Source: Anaerolineae bacterium
Lineage (GTDB): Bacteria; Chloroflexota; Anaerolineae; Aggregatilineales; Phototrophicaceae
Direction of reading: 5' to 3'
DNA length: 32,041 nucleotides
Assembly: GCA_013360465.1 (NCBI GenBank)
Contig: JABWBO010000042.1
Location: 1 to 32,041, forward strand
Shown here: positions 17,014 to 23,503 of the stretch, one piece after another
Layout of the letters: every line of letters begins with the position of its first letter
Numbering within the stretch: position 1 is the stretch's first letter
Notes under the pieces: model-generated
Databases searched by the model: none
What the model was told of the DNA's origin: nothing
What the model saw: only the letters and a program-made list of their open reading frames with translations
Made by a program: the position numbers and the translations under genes

Positions 17014-18366
17014 TCACGCCTCGGTTTTCGGGGCGGTATCATCGTCTTCGACCGGGCTTGGCGTTTCTGTCGGAGCGCTGGGCGGCGGCGGATTCAGCGA
17101 TTTGGCGCGCGGATACAGCTTGAGGAAGCGCGCCCCCAGCGAGAAGCCGAGCCAGCTGTATGCCACAATGCCCAGCGCCACACCCCATTCCACCAGCGCC
17201 GGCGTATACGAGTTGACGCCGAAGACATCGCGCACGCCGGGCGACCAGTCGAGGGGGATGACGAAACCGGAGAGCGTCATGTTCCAACGGTTGATCACCA
17301 GCCCGGCGACGATCATCAAGCCGCCCAGGATCAGCACATTGGTGTTGCTGCGCAGACGCCGCCAAAGCATGATGATCGCCGGGACCAGCGCGCCGAACAG
17401 CACTTCACCGAACCAGAAGGTGAAGTTGTAGGGGGTATTCGTCGCCAGGACTTCTACGCCGAGGCGCTGTTCTGGGATGTTGCTGTAGTAGTTCGTCGCT
17501 GCCCAGCTCCAGATCTTCAGATAGAGATAGGCGAGGCAGGCGAAGCCGACGACCTTCGCCATGCCGTTGATCACGTCGGCAGGAGCGAGCTGCATGGCGG
17601 TGAGCTTGCCCGCCACCAGCGTGACCAGCAGAGTCAGCGCTGTGCCGGCAGCCACCGCCGAAAGGATGAACAGCACCGGCGCGCTGGGCGAATACCAGAC
17701 GGGACGCGCCGTCAGGATGCCGTAGGTCGCGCCCAGCGAGGACTGGTGCAGCAGGCTCAGCCCCATGCCCGCCAGCGCCAGGAACGGCGTCAGTCGGTGC
17801 AGGAAGTGCGCCAGCCCGTGCAGGGCGCGGATGTTCTTGAGCGGTGTGCTTTCGATGATGACCGGCAGGACTTCGACCGCCAGCACGGTCGTGTAGAAGA
17901 TCACGCACATGGTGATCTCCCACAGCACGGAGTGGACGTTCCAGTAGATGATGGGATGGTAGAAACGGTCAAACCGCCCGATGTCTACGAACAGGGCGAT
18001 CATCGCCGAGGTATAGCCCAGGAAGCCGACCAGCACCGCCGCCCGCGCTATCGCTTCGTATTTCCTGAACCCGAAAAGGTAGACGGCTGCTGAGAAAGTG
18101 AACGCACCCGCGCCGAGCGCAATGGACGACAGGTCCACCGTGATCCACAGACCCCAGGGCAGTTCGTCCGAGAGGTTGGTGATGCCTAAGCCCTGAGTCA
18201 GCACTTGCAGCGCGCTGTAGACGCCGATGGCGAACGCCGTCGCCAGCAGACCGATCCACAGCCAGTACAGGGTTAGCCGACGGCGGGTGCGCCCCGGCGC
18301 AGTCCCCGCGCTGCCGGTTCGGTTCTGCGGCGTCGGCTGCGCATTCCTGATCATTGTTTGTGCCAT
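17014..18366 (-). CDS. NrfD/HybB-type polytopic membrane subunit (quinol-interacting)
   Basis: A 450-residue integral membrane protein with about ten helices in the NrfD/PsrC/HybB pattern: LTYWLWIGLLATA-like first helix, ELPWGLWITVDLSSIALGAGAFTFSAAVYLF, YHPIIYWNVHSVLWEITMCVIFYTTVLAVEVLP, LSLLHQSSLGATYGI, RWNMTLSGFVIPLDWSPG. NrfD proteins oxidise or reduce quinones and pass electrons to an Fe-S partner, often with a molybdopterin or cytochrome subunit. None of those partners is in the window, so this gene stands alone. A proline-rich charged tail (about 425-450) follows the last helix. The ATG at 18366 has GGGGG about 8 nt upstream. It is divergent from the ccm operon across a 199-nt region holding a CRP-type site. 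Confidence 0.88.
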   Translation of the reverse strand: MAQTMIRNAQPTPQNRTGSAGTAPGRTRRRLTLYWLWIGLLATAFAIGVYSALQVLTQGLGITNLSDELPWGLWITVDLSSIALGAGAFTFSAAVYLFGFRKYEAIARAAVLVGFLGYTSAMIALFVDIGRFDRFYHPIIYWNVHSVLWEITMCVIFYTTVLAVEVLPVIIESTPLKNIRALHGLAHFLHRLTPFLALAGMGLSLLHQSSLGATYGILTARPVWYSPSAPVLFILSAVAAGTALTLLVTLVAGKLTAMQLAPADVINGMAKVVGFACLAYLYLKIWSWAATNYYSNIPEQRLGVEVLATNTPYNFTFWFGEVLFGALVPAIIMLWRRLRSNTNVLILGGLMIVAGLVINRWNMTLSGFVIPLDWSPGVRDVFGVNSYTPALVEWGVALGIVAYSWLGFSLGARFLKLYPRAKSLNPPPPSAPTETPSPVEDDDTAPKTEA

Positions 18367-18447
18367 CAGATCAACCCCCGTGCGCTAGATCATGGATGTT
18401 CACTTTATTGTCGATCATTATTCTCGATCAGACACCCCCCTGGAAAC

Positions 18448-18463
18448 TGTGACACCTATCACA
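18448..18463. promoter_or_regulatory. CRP/FNR-superfamily binding site between nrfD-like gene and ccmE
   Basis: TGTGACACCTATCACA is an exact TGTGA-N6-TCACA, the CRP consensus half-sites. On the minus strand a GAGAAT (18420-18425) would place a start near 18413, putting the site centre near -42, the class II activator position for the nrfD-like gene. For ccmE the geometry is less clear. Two direct TCGATCA copies (18411-18417, 18424-18430) lie on the nrfD side. Binding is not shown. Confidence 0.6.
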
Positions 18464-18565
18464 ATCGAATAGTGCCATATACAAGGTCTTTTTCTGGCGC
18501 GCTGTCGGTAAGCTTAAGGGCGTGACATCTGCAAGGTGCCAAAATAGACTGAATGAGGACTTGCC

Positions 18566-19114
18566 ATGACGGATATTGCTTGGGAAAAATCACGCCAACC
18601 TGCTGCCCCGTCCCGCAGGATCAACGCTGAACGACTGAAGCTGTATGCCGGGTTGGTGCTGATCGCGGCGGTCCTGGTATTCGTCATCGTCAACGGTACG
18701 GTCAACAACGCGCGCTATTTCATCAGCATTAGCACGCTGCTCGAAGATCCCACATATATAGGCAAGACGGTGCGCGTCTCTGGCGCAGTGGTCGGCAGCA
18801 GCATCGCCTACGATGCCGAGAACCTGATCATCGACTTCACCGTCGCCGATTTCGATGAAAGCACGACCGATCTGGTCAGCGCGCTGCATGAAGCCGTCGT
18901 CAATCCGAATTCGGCGCGCATTCAGGTACACGTCGAAAACATGGTCAAGCCCGACCTGCTGATCGACGAAGCACAGGCGATCATGACCGGGACGCTGGAC
19001 GCCGACGGCACGTTCTACGCCACCGAGGTGCTGCTCAAGTGCCCCAGTCGCTATGAAGAGGCGGTTCCTGAACAGGCGGTCGTCTCCGACGAATTCAACG
19101 CTGCTCATCCGTAA
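18566..19114 (+). CDS. ccmE: Cytochrome c maturation protein CcmE, CxxxY-type heme chaperone
   Basis: CcmE carries heme covalently on the outer face of the membrane and delivers it to CcmF. The 182-residue product has an N-terminal basic stretch, one membrane anchor (LYAGLVLIAAVLVFVIVNG, about 26-44), then the OB-fold beta barrel (YIGKTVRVSGAVVGSSIAYD, LIIDFTVADF, IQVHVENMVKPDLLIDEAQAIMTGTL). The heme-attachment region reads LLKCPSRYEE: Cys159 and Tyr163, a CxxxY motif in place of the usual HxxxY. This is the rarer variant known from some archaea and sulfate reducers. ATG at 18566 has GAGGA about 7 nt upstream. It is the first gene of the ccm operon. Confidence 0.93.
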   Translation: MTDIAWEKSRQPAAPSRRINAERLKLYAGLVLIAAVLVFVIVNGTVNNARYFISISTLLEDPTYIGKTVRVSGAVVGSSIAYDAENLIIDFTVADFDESTTDLVSALHEAVVNPNSARIQVHVENMVKPDLLIDEAQAIMTGTLDADGTFYATEVLLKCPSRYEEAVPEQAVVSDEFNAAHP

Positions 19115-19155: not shown

Positions 19156-21297
19156 ATGCTTGCTGAAATCGGAGTATTCACCACCGCCTTTGCGCTCCTC
19201 ACCGCCCTTTACGCCGTCGGCGCGGCGCTGTGGGGCGAGCGCAGGGCGCACGCCGGCGGGCGTGAGGCTTTTACCGTCAGCGCGCGTAACGCGGTCATCC
19301 TGACCTTCCTCCTGCTCCTTGCGGGCAGCGGATCGCTGCTGGCGGCGCTCTATACCGAAGAATACCAGATCGCCTACGTCTGGTCGGTGACGAACCCACA
19401 GATGCCCATGTTCTACCGTCTGACGGCGCTTTGGGGGTCACAGGCGGGGTCGCTCCTCTTCTGGACGCTGCTGATGAGCGCTTTCAGCGCCGCCGCCGTG
19501 ACGCTCAACTGGCGTTCGCATCGTCGGTTGATGCCATATGCCATCATCTATATGATGGCGGCGGTCGCCTTCTTTGCGGCGCTGGTGCTGTTCGTCGAGA
19601 ATCCGTTTGACCGCTGGTGGATCCTGCCAGATGCCTCCGCCGACTTGCAGGTCGTCAAGGCGGCGCTCATCCCGGCGGGTGCGGAAGCGCCGAGCGCGGC
19701 GCGGCTGGCGGAGACTGCCAGCGGCTTGAACCCCATGCTGCGCCACTTCGGCATGGCAATTCACCCGCCGATGCTCTATTTGGGCTTCGTCGGCTTCGTC
19801 ATCCCGTTCGCCTTTGCCATGAGCGCCCTGGCATCCGGCGACCTTTCGAGCAGCTGGATCAAAGCCTCGCGGCGCTGGGCGCTGATCGCCTGGCTGTTCC
19901 TCAGTCTCGGCTTGATCCTGGGCGGGCGCTGGGCGTATGACGTGCTGGGCTGGGGCGGCTACTGGGGCTGGGACCCGGTGGAAAACGCGGCGTTCCTGCC
20001 CTGGCTGGTCGGGACCGCCTTCCTGCACAGCATCATGATCCAGGAAAAGCGCGGGATGCTCAAAACCTGGAACATGTTCCTGGTCATCTTCACCTTCTCC
20101 GCCGTCATCTTCGGGACGTTCGCCACCCGCAGCGGTTTGGTGGACAGCGTCCACAGCTTCGCCCGCAGCGAGATCGGCTTCCCGATGTTCGGCTTCTGGT
20201 TCCTGCTGACCCTGTCGGCGGTCGCGCTGATCCTATGGCGGCGGTCGCGCGGCGAACTGCGCGACGAACGTCACTTCGGCGGCATCCTCAGCCGCGAATC
20301 GCTGTTCGTCCTGAACAACTTCGTCTTCGTCGCGCTGACCATCGCCATCTTCTGGGGCAGCTTTGGCGCGCCCATCATCAGCGAACTGGTGATGAACACC
20401 AACATCACCCTCGGCGCGGAGTACTTCAAGAGCGTGACGCCGCCGCTGTTCATCCTGATGTACATCCTCATGGGCGTCGCGCCGCTTTCGGCGTGGGGCG
20501 TCGCCTCGATGCCCCGGTTGGGTCGGGCGCTGCTTCTGCCGGTGCTGCTGACCCTGGCGACTCTGGCGCTGTTCGTCGCCGACGGCACGACGCATCTCGG
20601 CGCGCTGTTCGGCTACGGCATTGTGCTGCTGGCGGGTTGGGTCGCGCTGATCGAAACCGTGCGCGGCGTCCTGGCGCGGCAGAAGGCGCACCGCGAGCCG
20701 GTCTACGTCTCGCTGCTGTCACTTTTCGCGCGCAATCCGCGCCGCTACGGCGGCTACCTGATCCACCTGGGCATCACGGTGATCGGTATCGGCGTGATCG
20801 GCAGCACCCTCTTTCAGCAGGAGACACAGCAGACTCTCTCCGTCGGTGAAAGCCTGAGCATTGATGGCTACAGCCTGCGTTTCGACGAACTGCTGGCAGG
20901 ACAGATCTCCGACGATGGTCGTCTGATGGATATCGCTTTGGTGACGGTGCTGCGGGACGGCGTGGAGATCGCTCGCCTGCGCCCGCGCCGCGACTTCTTC
21001 CCCCAGACCGAGGGCATGAACACCATGACCATCGCCGGGGCACACAGCACGCTGGAAAACGACTTCTACGTGCTGCTGGTGGAATGGGAGCCGATCAATC
21101 AGAACTCGGCGACCTTCAAAGTTTACATCAACCCCCTGATCAACCTGGTCTGGTGGGGCAGCATCCTGCTGATCTTCGGCACGCTCGCCGCCGGTTGGAA
21201 GCATGAGGTTCTGCCGGCGCGGCTGCGTCAGGAGATGCGCGCAGAAGAGGGCGCAGCCGCACCGACCGGTCGGCTGGCGCGGAAAGGGGCACAGTGA
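19156..21297 (+). CDS. ccmF: Cytochrome c heme lyase subunit CcmF
   Basis: CcmF, with CcmH, attaches heme from holo-CcmE to apocytochrome CxxCH motifs on the outer membrane face. The product is 713 residues with about 15 membrane helices, the usual size being about 650-700. The family's signature features are present: LWGSQAGSLLFWTLLMS, HPPMLYLGFVGFVIPFAFAMSAL, and the WWD domain GGYWGWDPVENAAFLPWL (about 264-281) with TAFLHSIMIQEKRGMLKTWN. A late periplasmic domain (ETQQTLSVGESLSIDGYSLRF...) precedes the last helix LINLVWWGSILLIFGTL. ATG at 19156 has GAAGG about 8 nt upstream. Its stop overlaps the ccmH start. Confidence 0.95.
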   Translation: MLAEIGVFTTAFALLTALYAVGAALWGERRAHAGGREAFTVSARNAVILTFLLLLAGSGSLLAALYTEEYQIAYVWSVTNPQMPMFYRLTALWGSQAGSLLFWTLLMSAFSAAAVTLNWRSHRRLMPYAIIYMMAAVAFFAALVLFVENPFDRWWILPDASADLQVVKAALIPAGAEAPSAARLAETASGLNPMLRHFGMAIHPPMLYLGFVGFVIPFAFAMSALASGDLSSSWIKASRRWALIAWLFLSLGLILGGRWAYDVLGWGGYWGWDPVENAAFLPWLVGTAFLHSIMIQEKRGMLKTWNMFLVIFTFSAVIFGTFATRSGLVDSVHSFARSEIGFPMFGFWFLLTLSAVALILWRRSRGELRDERHFGGILSRESLFVLNNFVFVALTIAIFWGSFGAPIISELVMNTNITLGAEYFKSVTPPLFILMYILMGVAPLSAWGVASMPRLGRALLLPVLLTLATLALFVADGTTHLGALFGYGIVLLAGWVALIETVRGVLARQKAHREPVYVSLLSLFARNPRRYGGYLIHLGITVIGIGVIGSTLFQQETQQTLSVGESLSIDGYSLRFDELLAGQISDDGRLMDIALVTVLRDGVEIARLRPRRDFFPQTEGMNTMTIAGAHSTLENDFYVLLVEWEPINQNSATFKVYINPLINLVWWGSILLIFGTLAAGWKHEVLPARLRQEMRAEEGAAAPTGRLARKGAQ

Positions 21298-21830
21298 TGA
21301 AGAGGATGCCCATGCGCCTGGCTGCGGCTGTCGGGCTGATCGTGCTGTTCTTCGTGCTGCAAGGGCTGGCGGCGCGGGTCGTCGTCGCCCAGGACGCCGA
21401 GACGCCGGCGACGCCCGTCGTCACCGATGACCAGGTTAACGCCGTCGCCAAGACCCTGTACTGCCCGGTGTGCGAGAACATCACGCTGGACACCTGTGGG
21501 ACGGCGGCTTGCGCCGACTGGCGCTATGAGATCCGCCTCCAGCTGGAGTCCGGGCGCACGATAGAGGCGATCCGCGAAGACTTCGTCCGTCGCTTTGGCG
21601 ACCGGGTCGTCGGTACGCCGCTCGATCCCGTCCTGCGGGCGCTTTCGCTGGCGCTGCCTTATGCGGCGGCAGTGTTGGGGCTGGCGGCGGCGGTGTTCGT
21701 CGTGATCCGGCTGACACGCCGGATGGACAGGTCGGCGATGCGCCCTGCGGCGGGGACCGTCGCAGAAGGCGCGCCGCGCGCCGACTACGCCGATCAGCTT
21801 GAACGCGATTTGGCAGGAGATCGTCCATGA
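21297..21830 (+). CDS. ccmH: Cytochrome c maturation thiol protein CcmH (CycL)
   Basis: CcmH reduces or holds the apocytochrome thiols before heme ligation. The product is 177 residues: an N-terminal signal/anchor helix (about 10-30), a periplasmic domain, and a C-terminal helix YAAAVLGLAAAVFVVIRLTRR. The LRCxxC family motif appears as LYCPVCENITLDTCGTAAC, giving four cysteines (56, 59, 67, 72), followed by EIRLQLESGRTIEAIREDFVRRFGDRVV. The extra two cysteines are absent from proteobacterial CcmH but fit what I recall of Chloroflexota homologues. ATG at 21297 overlaps the ccmF TGA (TGATG) with AAAGGGG 8 nt upstream; a GTG one codon earlier is possible. Confidence 0.92.
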   Translation: MKRMPMRLAAAVGLIVLFFVLQGLAARVVVAQDAETPATPVVTDDQVNAVAKTLYCPVCENITLDTCGTAACADWRYEIRLQLESGRTIEAIREDFVRRFGDRVVGTPLDPVLRALSLALPYAAAVLGLAAAVFVVIRLTRRMDRSAMRPAAGTVAEGAPRADYADQLERDLAGDRP

Positions 21831-22435
21831 CTACGTTAGAAGTTCAGCAGCGAGATCTCGCACTGGGTCAGCAGGACGCGCCGCAAGCGACGGCAGATGC
21901 GCCAACCGCCGCAGGACGCCGCTTTGGGGTGGGGTCGATTGTCCTGCTGATCGGCGTGATCGCCGCCGCGGCGACCTTCGCCCTTGCGCTGGCGCGGCAG
22001 GGACAAACACAGCCGACACAGGGCATCGCCCCGGATTTTGCGCTGGAGACTTTTTCCGGCGAGACGGTGCGCCTCGGTGATCTGCGCGGCAAGGTGGTGG
22101 TCATCAACTTCTGGGCGTCGTGGTGCGGACCGTGCCGCGACGAAGCGCCGCACCTTCAGCAGGCGTGGGAACGCTATCAAAACAGCGGCGATGTCGTCTT
22201 CATGGGCGTGGCGTATGCCGACAACGGACCGCGCTCCATCGCCTATCTGGAAGAGTTCGGCATCACCTATCTGAACGGACCCGATCTGGGCACGCGCATC
22301 AGCGAAGCCTATCACATTCAAGGCGTCCCAGAGACGTTCATCGTAGGGCGCGACGGCGAGATCGAGCAGTTCATTTACGCCGGCGTGAGCGCCGACAGCC
22401 TCAGCCGGATCATCGACCGCGCGCTGGCAGGGTAG
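21827..22435 (+). CDS. ccmG: TlpA/CcmG-type membrane-anchored thioredoxin
   Basis: A 202-residue periplasmic-facing thiol reductase: a disordered N-terminus (1-33), one anchor helix (about 37-56), then a thioredoxin domain with APDFALETFSGETVRLGDLRGKVVVINFWASWCGPCRDEAPHL (redox pair Cys100/Cys103) and cis-Pro loop GVPETFIVGRDG. CcmG/TlpA proteins keep CcmH and apocytochrome cysteines reduced. The ATGA overlap with ccmH indicates tight coupling. Assignment to CcmG rather than a generic TlpA rests on the operon. Confidence 0.92.
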   Translation: MTTLEVQQRDLALGQQDAPQATADAPTAAGRRFGVGSIVLLIGVIAAAATFALALARQGQTQPTQGIAPDFALETFSGETVRLGDLRGKVVVINFWASWCGPCRDEAPHLQQAWERYQNSGDVVFMGVAYADNGPRSIAYLEEFGITYLNGPDLGTRISEAYHIQGVPETFIVGRDGEIEQFIYAGVSADSLSRIIDRALAG

Positions 22436-22445
22436 GAGGACAGTG

Positions 22446-22742
22446 ATGAGTACTTCGGGTCTTATCCTCGCTCTGGTGGTATTGGTGGTCGGCGCAGCCT
22501 GGCTGATGCTGCCGTTGTGGCAGGAGCGCCGGGCGACGAACCTCGCCGCCGCTGACCGTCAGAAGGCGCGGGAAATTCTGATCACGCACTATGAGCGCAT
22601 CCTGGCGTCCATGCGCGATCTGGATGAGGACTTTCTCGTCGGCAAAATACCGGAAGCCGCCTACCGTCAGGAACGTGCGGCATGGGCAGCAGAAGGCACG
22701 GCGATATTGCAGGCAATCGAAAAGGGAAAGACAAACTCATGA
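22446..22742 (+). CDS. CcmI-like N-terminal membrane/coiled-coil protein
   Basis: A 98-residue protein with one N-terminal membrane helix (LILALVVLVVGAAWLMLPLW) followed by a charged helical region ADRQKAREILITHYERILASMRDLDEDFLVGKIPEAAYRQERAAWAAEG. This resembles the membrane and heptad part of CcmI, without its TPR domain. In this place CcmI would assist CcmF-CcmH or apocytochrome delivery; the role here is inferred from position and shape. ATG at 22446 is supported by AGGAGGA starting inside the ccmG stop; a GTG one codon upstream is also open. It overlaps ccmC by 4 nt. Confidence 0.75.
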   Translation: MSTSGLILALVVLVVGAAWLMLPLWQERRATNLAAADRQKAREILITHYERILASMRDLDEDFLVGKIPEAAYRQERAAWAAEGTAILQAIEKGKTNS

Positions 22743-23503
22743 GCGCAGTTGGAACCATCAAACAGCCGATCGCCGCAGAACGTTCCGGGGTGCGCCCTGA
22801 ACGCGACCGGCTGGCGTTTCTCAAGCTGCTGACCCTGGCGGCGGTCGTGGGCTTGGCGGTTGCTGCTTATCTGGCGCTGGTTTATGCCGGACCGGATGCC
22901 CTGCAGGGCAATGTTCAGCGCGTCTTCTACTTCCACGTCGCGGCGTTCTCGGCGGCATCGGTCGCCTTCTTCATGGGCGTGGTCGGCGGCATCGCCTATC
23001 TGCGCACCCGAGCCGTCAAGTGGGACACGCTGGCGCTGGCGGGAATCGAAGTCGGCTTCGCGCTGTCGCTGATCACGCTGTTCACCGGCATGGTCTGGGC
23101 GCGCCCGATCTGGAATACCTGGTGGACGTGGGACCCGCGTCTGACCAGCGCGGCGATCATGTGTCTGACCTACGCCGCCTATCTGATGCTGCGCAGCGCC
23201 ATCGAAAACCCCGACAAGCGGCGGGCGTTCGCTTCGGTGTACGGCATTTTCGCTTTTGCCACCGTGATCATCACCTACATGATCACGCGCATTCGTCCCG
23301 ACACCATCCACCCGACGGTCATCGGCAGCAGCCCGCAGAACGCTCAGGGCGGCTTCGCCATGACCAGCACGATGACGGCGGCGCTCGCCGTCGGCAGCCT
23401 TGTCTGGTGCTGTCTGATCGCCCCGACGCTGGTCTGGTGGCGCATCCGCCTGGAAAACCTGATCGAACGCGCCGCCGCCCTGCGCGCGGCGCTGGAAAGC
23501 TGA
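22739..23503 (+). CDS. ccmC: Heme exporter / heme-handling protein CcmC
   Basis: CcmC presents heme to CcmE through its WWD domain. The product is 254 residues with six membrane helices: LKLLTLAAVVGLAVAAYLAL, VQRVFYFHVAAFSAASVAFF (conserved His), EVGFALSLITLFTGMVWARP, then WNTWWTWDPRLTSAAIMCL (WWD motif at about 125-133), followed by YGIFAFATVIITYMITRIRPDTIHP with the second conserved His. The frame is open to 22682, but ATG at 22739 overlaps the previous stop (ATGA) and fits the family. CcmA and CcmB, which power heme release in the standard system, are not present in the window. Confidence 0.95.
   Translation: MSAVGTIKQPIAAERSGVRPERDRLAFLKLLTLAAVVGLAVAAYLALVYAGPDALQGNVQRVFYFHVAAFSAASVAFFMGVVGGIAYLRTRAVKWDTLALAGIEVGFALSLITLFTGMVWARPIWNTWWTWDPRLTSAAIMCLTYAAYLMLRSAIENPDKRRAFASVYGIFAFATVIITYMITRIRPDTIHPTVIGSSPQNAQGGFAMTSTMTAALAVGSLVWCCLIAPTLVWWRIRLENLIERAAALRAALES

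Follow-up and report, generated by a model that had tools for sequence, protein, structure and literature searches.

A putative CRP/FNR-type operator between nrfD and ccmE in an Anaerolineae bacterium, its conservation in relatives and a divided electron-transfer operon

The nrfD-ccmE intergenic region

The window, by which we mean the whole stretch of 32,041 nucleotides that was analyzed, contains a divergent arrangement in which genes for cytochrome c maturation face rightward and a gene for an NrfD-family membrane subunit of 450 aa (17014-18366, minus strand, PF03916) faces leftward. On the plus strand lie ccmE (18566-19114, PF03100), ccmF (19156-21297, PF16327), ccmH (21294-21830, PF03918), a gene for a thioredoxin-like protein with an AhpC-TSA/Redoxin match (21827-22435), which is probably ccmG, a name that we give it for its position, and a gene for a CcmC-like haem-handling protein (22682-23503), whose match lies below the NCBIfam cut-off. 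The matches for NrfD, CcmE, CcmF and CcmH agree with the gene names given in an earlier note on this DNA.

The stretch between nrfD (start at 18366, minus strand) and ccmE (start at 18566, plus strand) has a G+C content of 48%, compared with 63% for the window. It harbors, at 18448-18463, the palindrome TGTGACACCTATCACA, which is, as the earlier note had claimed for this divergent promoter region, an exact TGTGA-N6-TCACA; it has two-fold symmetry and a TGA-N6-TCA core, and it is the sole exact match in the window. When up to two mismatches were allowed, the window gave 11 matches versus 8.7 by shuffling, which is the chance level, so that matches of this looser kind are uninformative. We annotate the palindrome, to which no strand is assigned, as a putative CRP/FNR-type site with the conserved core RTGAY-N4-RTCAY. 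A candidate -10 element lies on either side of it: the minus-strand GAGAAT (18420-18425; pattern nAnAAT) starts 22 nt past the site, and TAAGCT (18509-18514, plus strand; pattern TAnnnT), assigned to the ccmE promoter, starts 45 nt past it. Two 13-bp tandem copies, TTATTGTCGATCA and TTATTCTCGATCA (18405-18430, no strand), double the minus-strand element (GACAAT plus GAGAAT). Two other boxes were set aside, namely the plus-strand TAGACT at 18545-18550, which came from a consensus scan, because the conserved -10 element is that at 18509-18514, and the minus-strand AATAAT at 18422-18417, because it overlaps GAGAAT and is not in the conserved register. In genome G006, the intergenic gap is 11 bp shorter than in the window.

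Conservation of the site and of promoter spacing

The nearest named relatives of the window's genome (G000; 5.93 Mb in 256 contigs) are MAGs labelled Anaerolineae bacterium or Chloroflexi bacterium, some of which belong to the Aggregatilineales. From the relatives we fetched the upstream regions of the best 90 of 143 listed ccmE matches; 87 regions from 74 genomes had at least 100 bp of upstream sequence and were usable (L061, L073 and L124 were dropped). With at most one mismatch, the 16-mer was present in 29 of the 87 regions, versus 2 for the reversed pattern and 0.6 for shuffled ones, and with at most two mismatches in 54 (versus 2 and 7.7, respectively). The core TGAY-N4-RTCA was found in 43 of them (versus 1.4 shuffled and 2 reversed), and the same halves separated by N3 or N5 occurred in 2 of 87 each. 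The site upstream of ccmE is conserved in orthologous promoters above chance, and it is highly likely that the palindrome is a genuine binding site for a regulator, of a familiar kind. The arrangement with nrfD directly divergent from ccmE is confined, among the fetched ccmE loci, to G000 and its near twin G006, which ties the site to ccm rather than to nrfD.

Based on the position of the site and the similarity of ccmE, 20 promoters of the window type were picked by eye from the 90; L055 (from G007) was left out for lack of the core, leaving 19 aligned promoters. Within the 16-mer, G4, A5, T12 and C13 are present in all 19, and T3 and A14 in 18. At position 2, G and A occur in a ratio of 9:10, positions 6 (C or T) and 11 (A or G) follow these rules in 18 of 19 promoters each, position 15 is C or T, and the ends are free. 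The nearest relative, G006, has CGTGACACCTATCACA at the site. What is conserved is thus RTGAY-N4-RTCAY only, implying that the perfection of the 16-mer in the window is partly coincidence.

The distances to the -10 elements are conserved as well. A plus-strand TAnnnT starts exactly 45 nt past the site in 13 of the 19 promoters, including that of the window, and a minus-strand nAnAAT exactly 22 nt past it in 8, again including the window; none of 2000 rotations matched either offset (best, 5 and 5). Without G006 the counts are 12 and 7, versus 5 and 4 in the best rotation. It should be noted that the rotation controls cover the choice of offset, and that kinship and the choice of rows are uncorrected: genera g1 and g13 account for 11 of the 13 plus-strand rows (g4 and g6 for the rest), and among the 8 minus-strand rows six are from g1 and the others from g11 and g13. 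The genomes with the minus-strand box have, divergent from ccmE, either a sensor kinase gene (G003, G004, G005, G012, G024 and G059) or nrfD (G000 and G006). The remaining 11 consist of G027, which carries the kinase with an additional site of its own, nine genomes that showed no such gene within 1500 bp, and G067, for which only 178 bp were available. The tblastn search for these genes extended over no more than 1500 bp, with the result that a highly diverged kinase may have escaped it. The presence of the box in genomes with kinase or nrfD at this place ties the minus-strand promoter to divergent electron-transfer genes.

If transcription starts 7 nt past GAGAAT (18425-18420), the center of the site would lie at about -42.5 for the leftward promoter; for the rightward promoter it would lie at about -65.5. 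In E. coli, class II sites are centered at -41.5 and class I sites at -61.5 or -71.5, and FNR is positioned near -64.5 at napF. The earlier note had proposed GAGAAT as the leftward box, with the site near -42 as for class II activation. This proposal is supported by the eight genomes that share the 22-nt offset, all of which carry a divergent nrfD or the linked kinase gene, and the position on the nrfD side is class II-like. Some features count against the reading as a CRP/FNR-type activator site: by the E. coli rule, -65.5 is off the class I phase, -42.5 is one base from -41.5, and the second base of the site, which is G or A in window-type promoters, is looser than in TGTGA.

The divided operon and other occurrences of the site

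In G003, G012, G024, G027 and G059, the operon divergent from ccmE encodes a histidine kinase, a LuxR-type response regulator (Response_reg and GerE domains), multihaem cytochromes c with 8-9 CxxCH motifs each, a 4Fe-4S protein and, as the last gene, NrfD. Some other relatives have the NrfD cluster at another place or without the kinase pair. Our search found a single nrfD per genome in G000 and G006, and the genes from the kinase through the 4Fe-4S protein lie together on another contig (C218 in G000, C70 in G006). The nrfD gene beside ccm, which the earlier note had called an orphan, does stand alone on its contig; however, judging by this gene content, it is a displaced subunit of the kinase-regulator-multihaem cytochrome-FeS-NrfD operon, whose other genes are on C218. 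An assembly chimaera is disfavored, since two MAGs, possibly non-independent, share the split. Next to the 4Fe-4S gene on C218, where nrfD would be expected, lies a gene for a YgjP-like metallopeptidase (L228:2850-3593, PF01863).

The kinase promoter on C218 has a site of its own, CGTGACATGCGTCACC, with CACAAT 22 nt away, and its counterpart on C70 of G006 has CAAAAT (offset counted by eye). On the opposite side of this site, the distance to the start of a ccmE-like TAAGCT is 44 nt in either genome, again by eye. These parts suggest that the whole promoter may have been duplicated in the operon split, which they do not prove, because the regulatory regions on C23 and C218 do not align overall (score of 53.5 versus a shuffled maximum of 73); we therefore rejected the idea that the two regions are duplicates along their entire length.

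The window's genome contains 13 exact TGTGA-N6-TCACA sites, versus 0 for the reversed control pattern, and the sums over 73 genomes of the family are 560 and 83, respectively. Nine of these 13 sites fall outside predicted ORFs; two of the remaining four lie at an ORF's 5' edge. Respiratory neighbors were found for three: the ccm/nrfD locus of the window itself, nosZ with two CRP-family genes, and a cluster in which the exact site is 52 bp from an ArsR-like gene that lies upstream of a multihaem/cytochrome b561 gene. The remaining neighbors are mixed and include genes for an ammonium transporter, serine/threonine kinases, a LacI-type protein, a GH31 protein and an acyl-CoA dehydrogenase. The genome scan proposed in the earlier note, which looked for clustering at respiratory genes, thus answers the question only in part, and we rejected a respiratory regulon defined by the exact 16-mer, as the 13 sites do not cluster cleanly at such genes. 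A -10 box lies 20-22 nt past these sites in 4 of 26 directions, which we judged, without a formal control, not to be clearly above chance.

Four proteins encoded by the window's genome combine a cNMP-binding domain with a Crp-type HTH domain (C85a, C85b, C90 and C199), so that CRP/FNR-family regulators are present. The recognition helix reads R-E-x-x-x-R in C85a, C85b and C199, and P-D-x-x-x-R in C90; the R-E-x-x-x-R residues are presumably TGTGA contacts, as in E. coli CRP. The genes for C85a and C85b (crpA and crpB) are in tandem in a cluster on contig C85 (L018:3924-10953) with a Sec-type nosZ (TIGR04246, 799 bits; PF18764 in relatives), nosD and an ABC ATPase gene. A TGTGAY-type site precedes each of crpB and nosZ at a class II-like distance, and related genomes show this too (four others for crpB, five for nosZ). 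In the case of crpB, a TAnnnT starts exactly 21 nt past the upstream site in the five genomes looked at, which centers the site at -41.5. At nosZ in six genomes, of which the five relatives were inspected by eye, the box starts 20-21 nt past the site and is CACAAT (G000), CATGAT (four) or CATCAT (one). These CRP-linked promoters share, in the same bacteria, the geometry of the window's promoter. In the available text of PMC11879220, clade II nosZ is described in one Chloroflexota MAG.

A second kind of ccmE promoter has the site in another position. In the 26 ccmE promoters that are not of the window type (at most one mismatch), TATAAT starts 6-8 nt past the site in 17, versus 9 in the best of 2000 rotations; here the site overlaps the core promoter, a repressor-like position. 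In genus g17, this overlapping type, TGTGA-N6-TCACAA-like, is kept in 7 of 13 ccmE regions (e.g., L072, L098 and L106). A CRP query against these 13 genomes gave a single match (E = 8.9e-4), and none in the seven with the site. In 21 g17 genomes (6 among the 13), the matches to PF00027 were in frames of 619-792 aa and, in G126, in one of 201 aa, and exact sites are scarce in this genus (0-2 per genome in 28 genomes). In genus g35, which belongs to another family, TACCAT lies 22 nt past the site in the four rows shown, which is activator-like. The window's genome itself has a second ccmE paralogue (C37:26643-27155), outside the window-type promoter set, with TGCGAAGACGATCACA as its site. In addition, g17 loci L287, L294 and L297 share a recurrent TTGTGATAAATTTCACAA 2-48 bp before a gene, which encodes a cytochrome P450 in L297 (PF00067) and looks alike by eye in the other two.

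Interpretation and comparison with known systems

The reading that we favor, with moderate confidence, is that the palindrome is the operator of a bidirectional promoter in a lineage in which an ancestral operon has been split. We infer that a CRP/FNR-family dimer, responding to the signal it senses, would bind here and activate rather than repress transcription in both directions: leftward into nrfD from about -42.5, class II-like, with a start near 18413, and rightward into ccmE and the genes after it from about -65.5, with a start near 18521. The ancestral leftward operon would have comprised the sensor kinase, the LuxR-type response regulator, the multihaem cytochromes c, the 4Fe-4S protein and NrfD. 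With such an operon facing away from ccm across a shared operator, cytochromes c and the apparatus for attaching haem to them would have been switched on together. In the window's lineage the operon is split: nrfD lies next to ccm and the other genes on C218, and the two pieces have the same operator with the same spacing to the -10 element. The earlier note had suggested joint control of a quinol-oxidizing module and cytochrome c assembly by a CRP/FNR-family regulator. A single site at fixed distances from both promoters is consistent with the joint part of this suggestion; the module is only putatively quinol-oxidizing, and the regulator would most likely be a member of the CRP/FNR family.

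Further observations count against the favored reading, namely the repressor-like sites elsewhere, the genus g17, which keeps the site in seven genomes that gave no match to the CRP query, the small share of genomic sites at respiratory genes (3 of 13) and the lack of an overall alignment between the C23 and C218 regions. In another scheme, one type of operator would act in opposite ways at paralogous ccm promoters within one family, as an activator site for two divergent promoters at the window's copy and as a core-overlapping repressor site at others, with a reader outside the CRP family in g17, and the operon split would have duplicated the two-way promoter in full, so that its halves stay in step. 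We regard this combined scheme as unlikely. A similarly low probability is given to the possibility that the LuxR/NarL-type response regulator of the ancestral divergent operon binds the palindrome, as part of an autoregulated two-component system that would also drive ccm. In 7 of the 19 window-type promoters, the kinase gene and ccmE are immediate divergent neighbors, with the regulator gene next to the kinase gene where that stretch was fetched, the kinase/regulator pair keeps the site on C218, and in gamma-proteobacteria ccm is predicted to be under the shared control of FNR and NarP-type regulators (available part of PMC1805755). However, a TGAY-N4-RTCA core with -41.5/-42.5 spacing is what CRP/FNR sites have, and it matches the crpB promoters; moreover, the core is retained in G017, even though the closest NrfD match there shows 25% identity, which means that this genome probably lacks the NrfD module (a comparison confined to NrfD).

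The apparent lack of CRP-family regulators in g17, as judged with the query used, also raised the NADH-sensing repressor Rex as a candidate. The S. aureus operator is TTGTGAAW4TTCACAA, according to the available text of PMC2883068, and PF06971 matches are present in 67 of the 73 genomes of the family (65 of them above the cut-off), among them G000 and all 13 g17 members of this set. The window's site, however, differs from Rex sites in carrying C and A in place of A and T, and its positions in window-type promoters are activator-like. In addition, the rex promoters have a half-site of their own: in 15 of the 20 genomes inspected by eye (L266-L285), TTTCACAA precedes the start of rex by roughly 25-50 bp, which suggests that rex may be autoregulated and is unlike the window's ATCACA/GTCACA. 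We consider Rex improbable as the regulator and set it aside. That the exact 16-mer is a chance match, with only the two promoters conserved, is the least probable of these readings, and we give it very little credence: the outer T and A are indeed unconserved even in the closest relative, but the inner core is present in nearly all of the 19 diverged promoters and is spacing-specific in the 87 regions.

If the favored reading of a two-way, CRP/FNR-type operator is correct, a testable promoter rule, defined by spacing, would be available for the attachment of haem and for multihaem electron transfer in Aggregatilineales-type Chloroflexota. It would also help to predict when respiratory genes are switched on in uncultured members of this group. 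The case further suggests that a gene that looks like an orphan can retain the control of the operon it left.

CRP/FNR control of ccm in Chloroflexota was not found among the matches listed in our literature search; Chloroflexi and ccm go unmentioned in the available part of PMC8510549, and the corresponding part of PMC8139620 gave no site spacing. Within the bacteria studied here, the closest likeness is offered by the crpA-crpB-nosZ promoters (L018, L209-L213), which have TGTGAY-N4-RTCACA sites with class II-like spacing, and which differ from the window in that they serve the denitrification gene nosZ and have regulator genes adjacent. The E. coli-type CRP class II promoters share with the window the TGTGA-N6-TCACA motif and a -10 element 21-22 nt past the 16-mer; however, they are centered at -41.5, whereas the gap on the nrfD side of the window's putative site is 22 nt, which gives -42.5, and the second base in its relatives is G or A. 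Rex operators share the TTGTGA-N6-TCACAA outline, with A/T instead of the window's C/A as inner bases. Control of cytochrome c maturation of the CRP/FNR type is known in kind, as sites for FNR and NarP have been predicted upstream of ccm in gamma-proteobacteria (available part of PMC1805755). That nap/ccm system resembles the window in having a CRP/FNR-family site before cytochrome c maturation genes and in the involvement of a NarL-type two-component system. In contrast to it, the single site of the window would serve two divergent operons, its partner is a multihaem cytochrome/FeS/NrfD module, and the host is an uncultured chloroflexotan.
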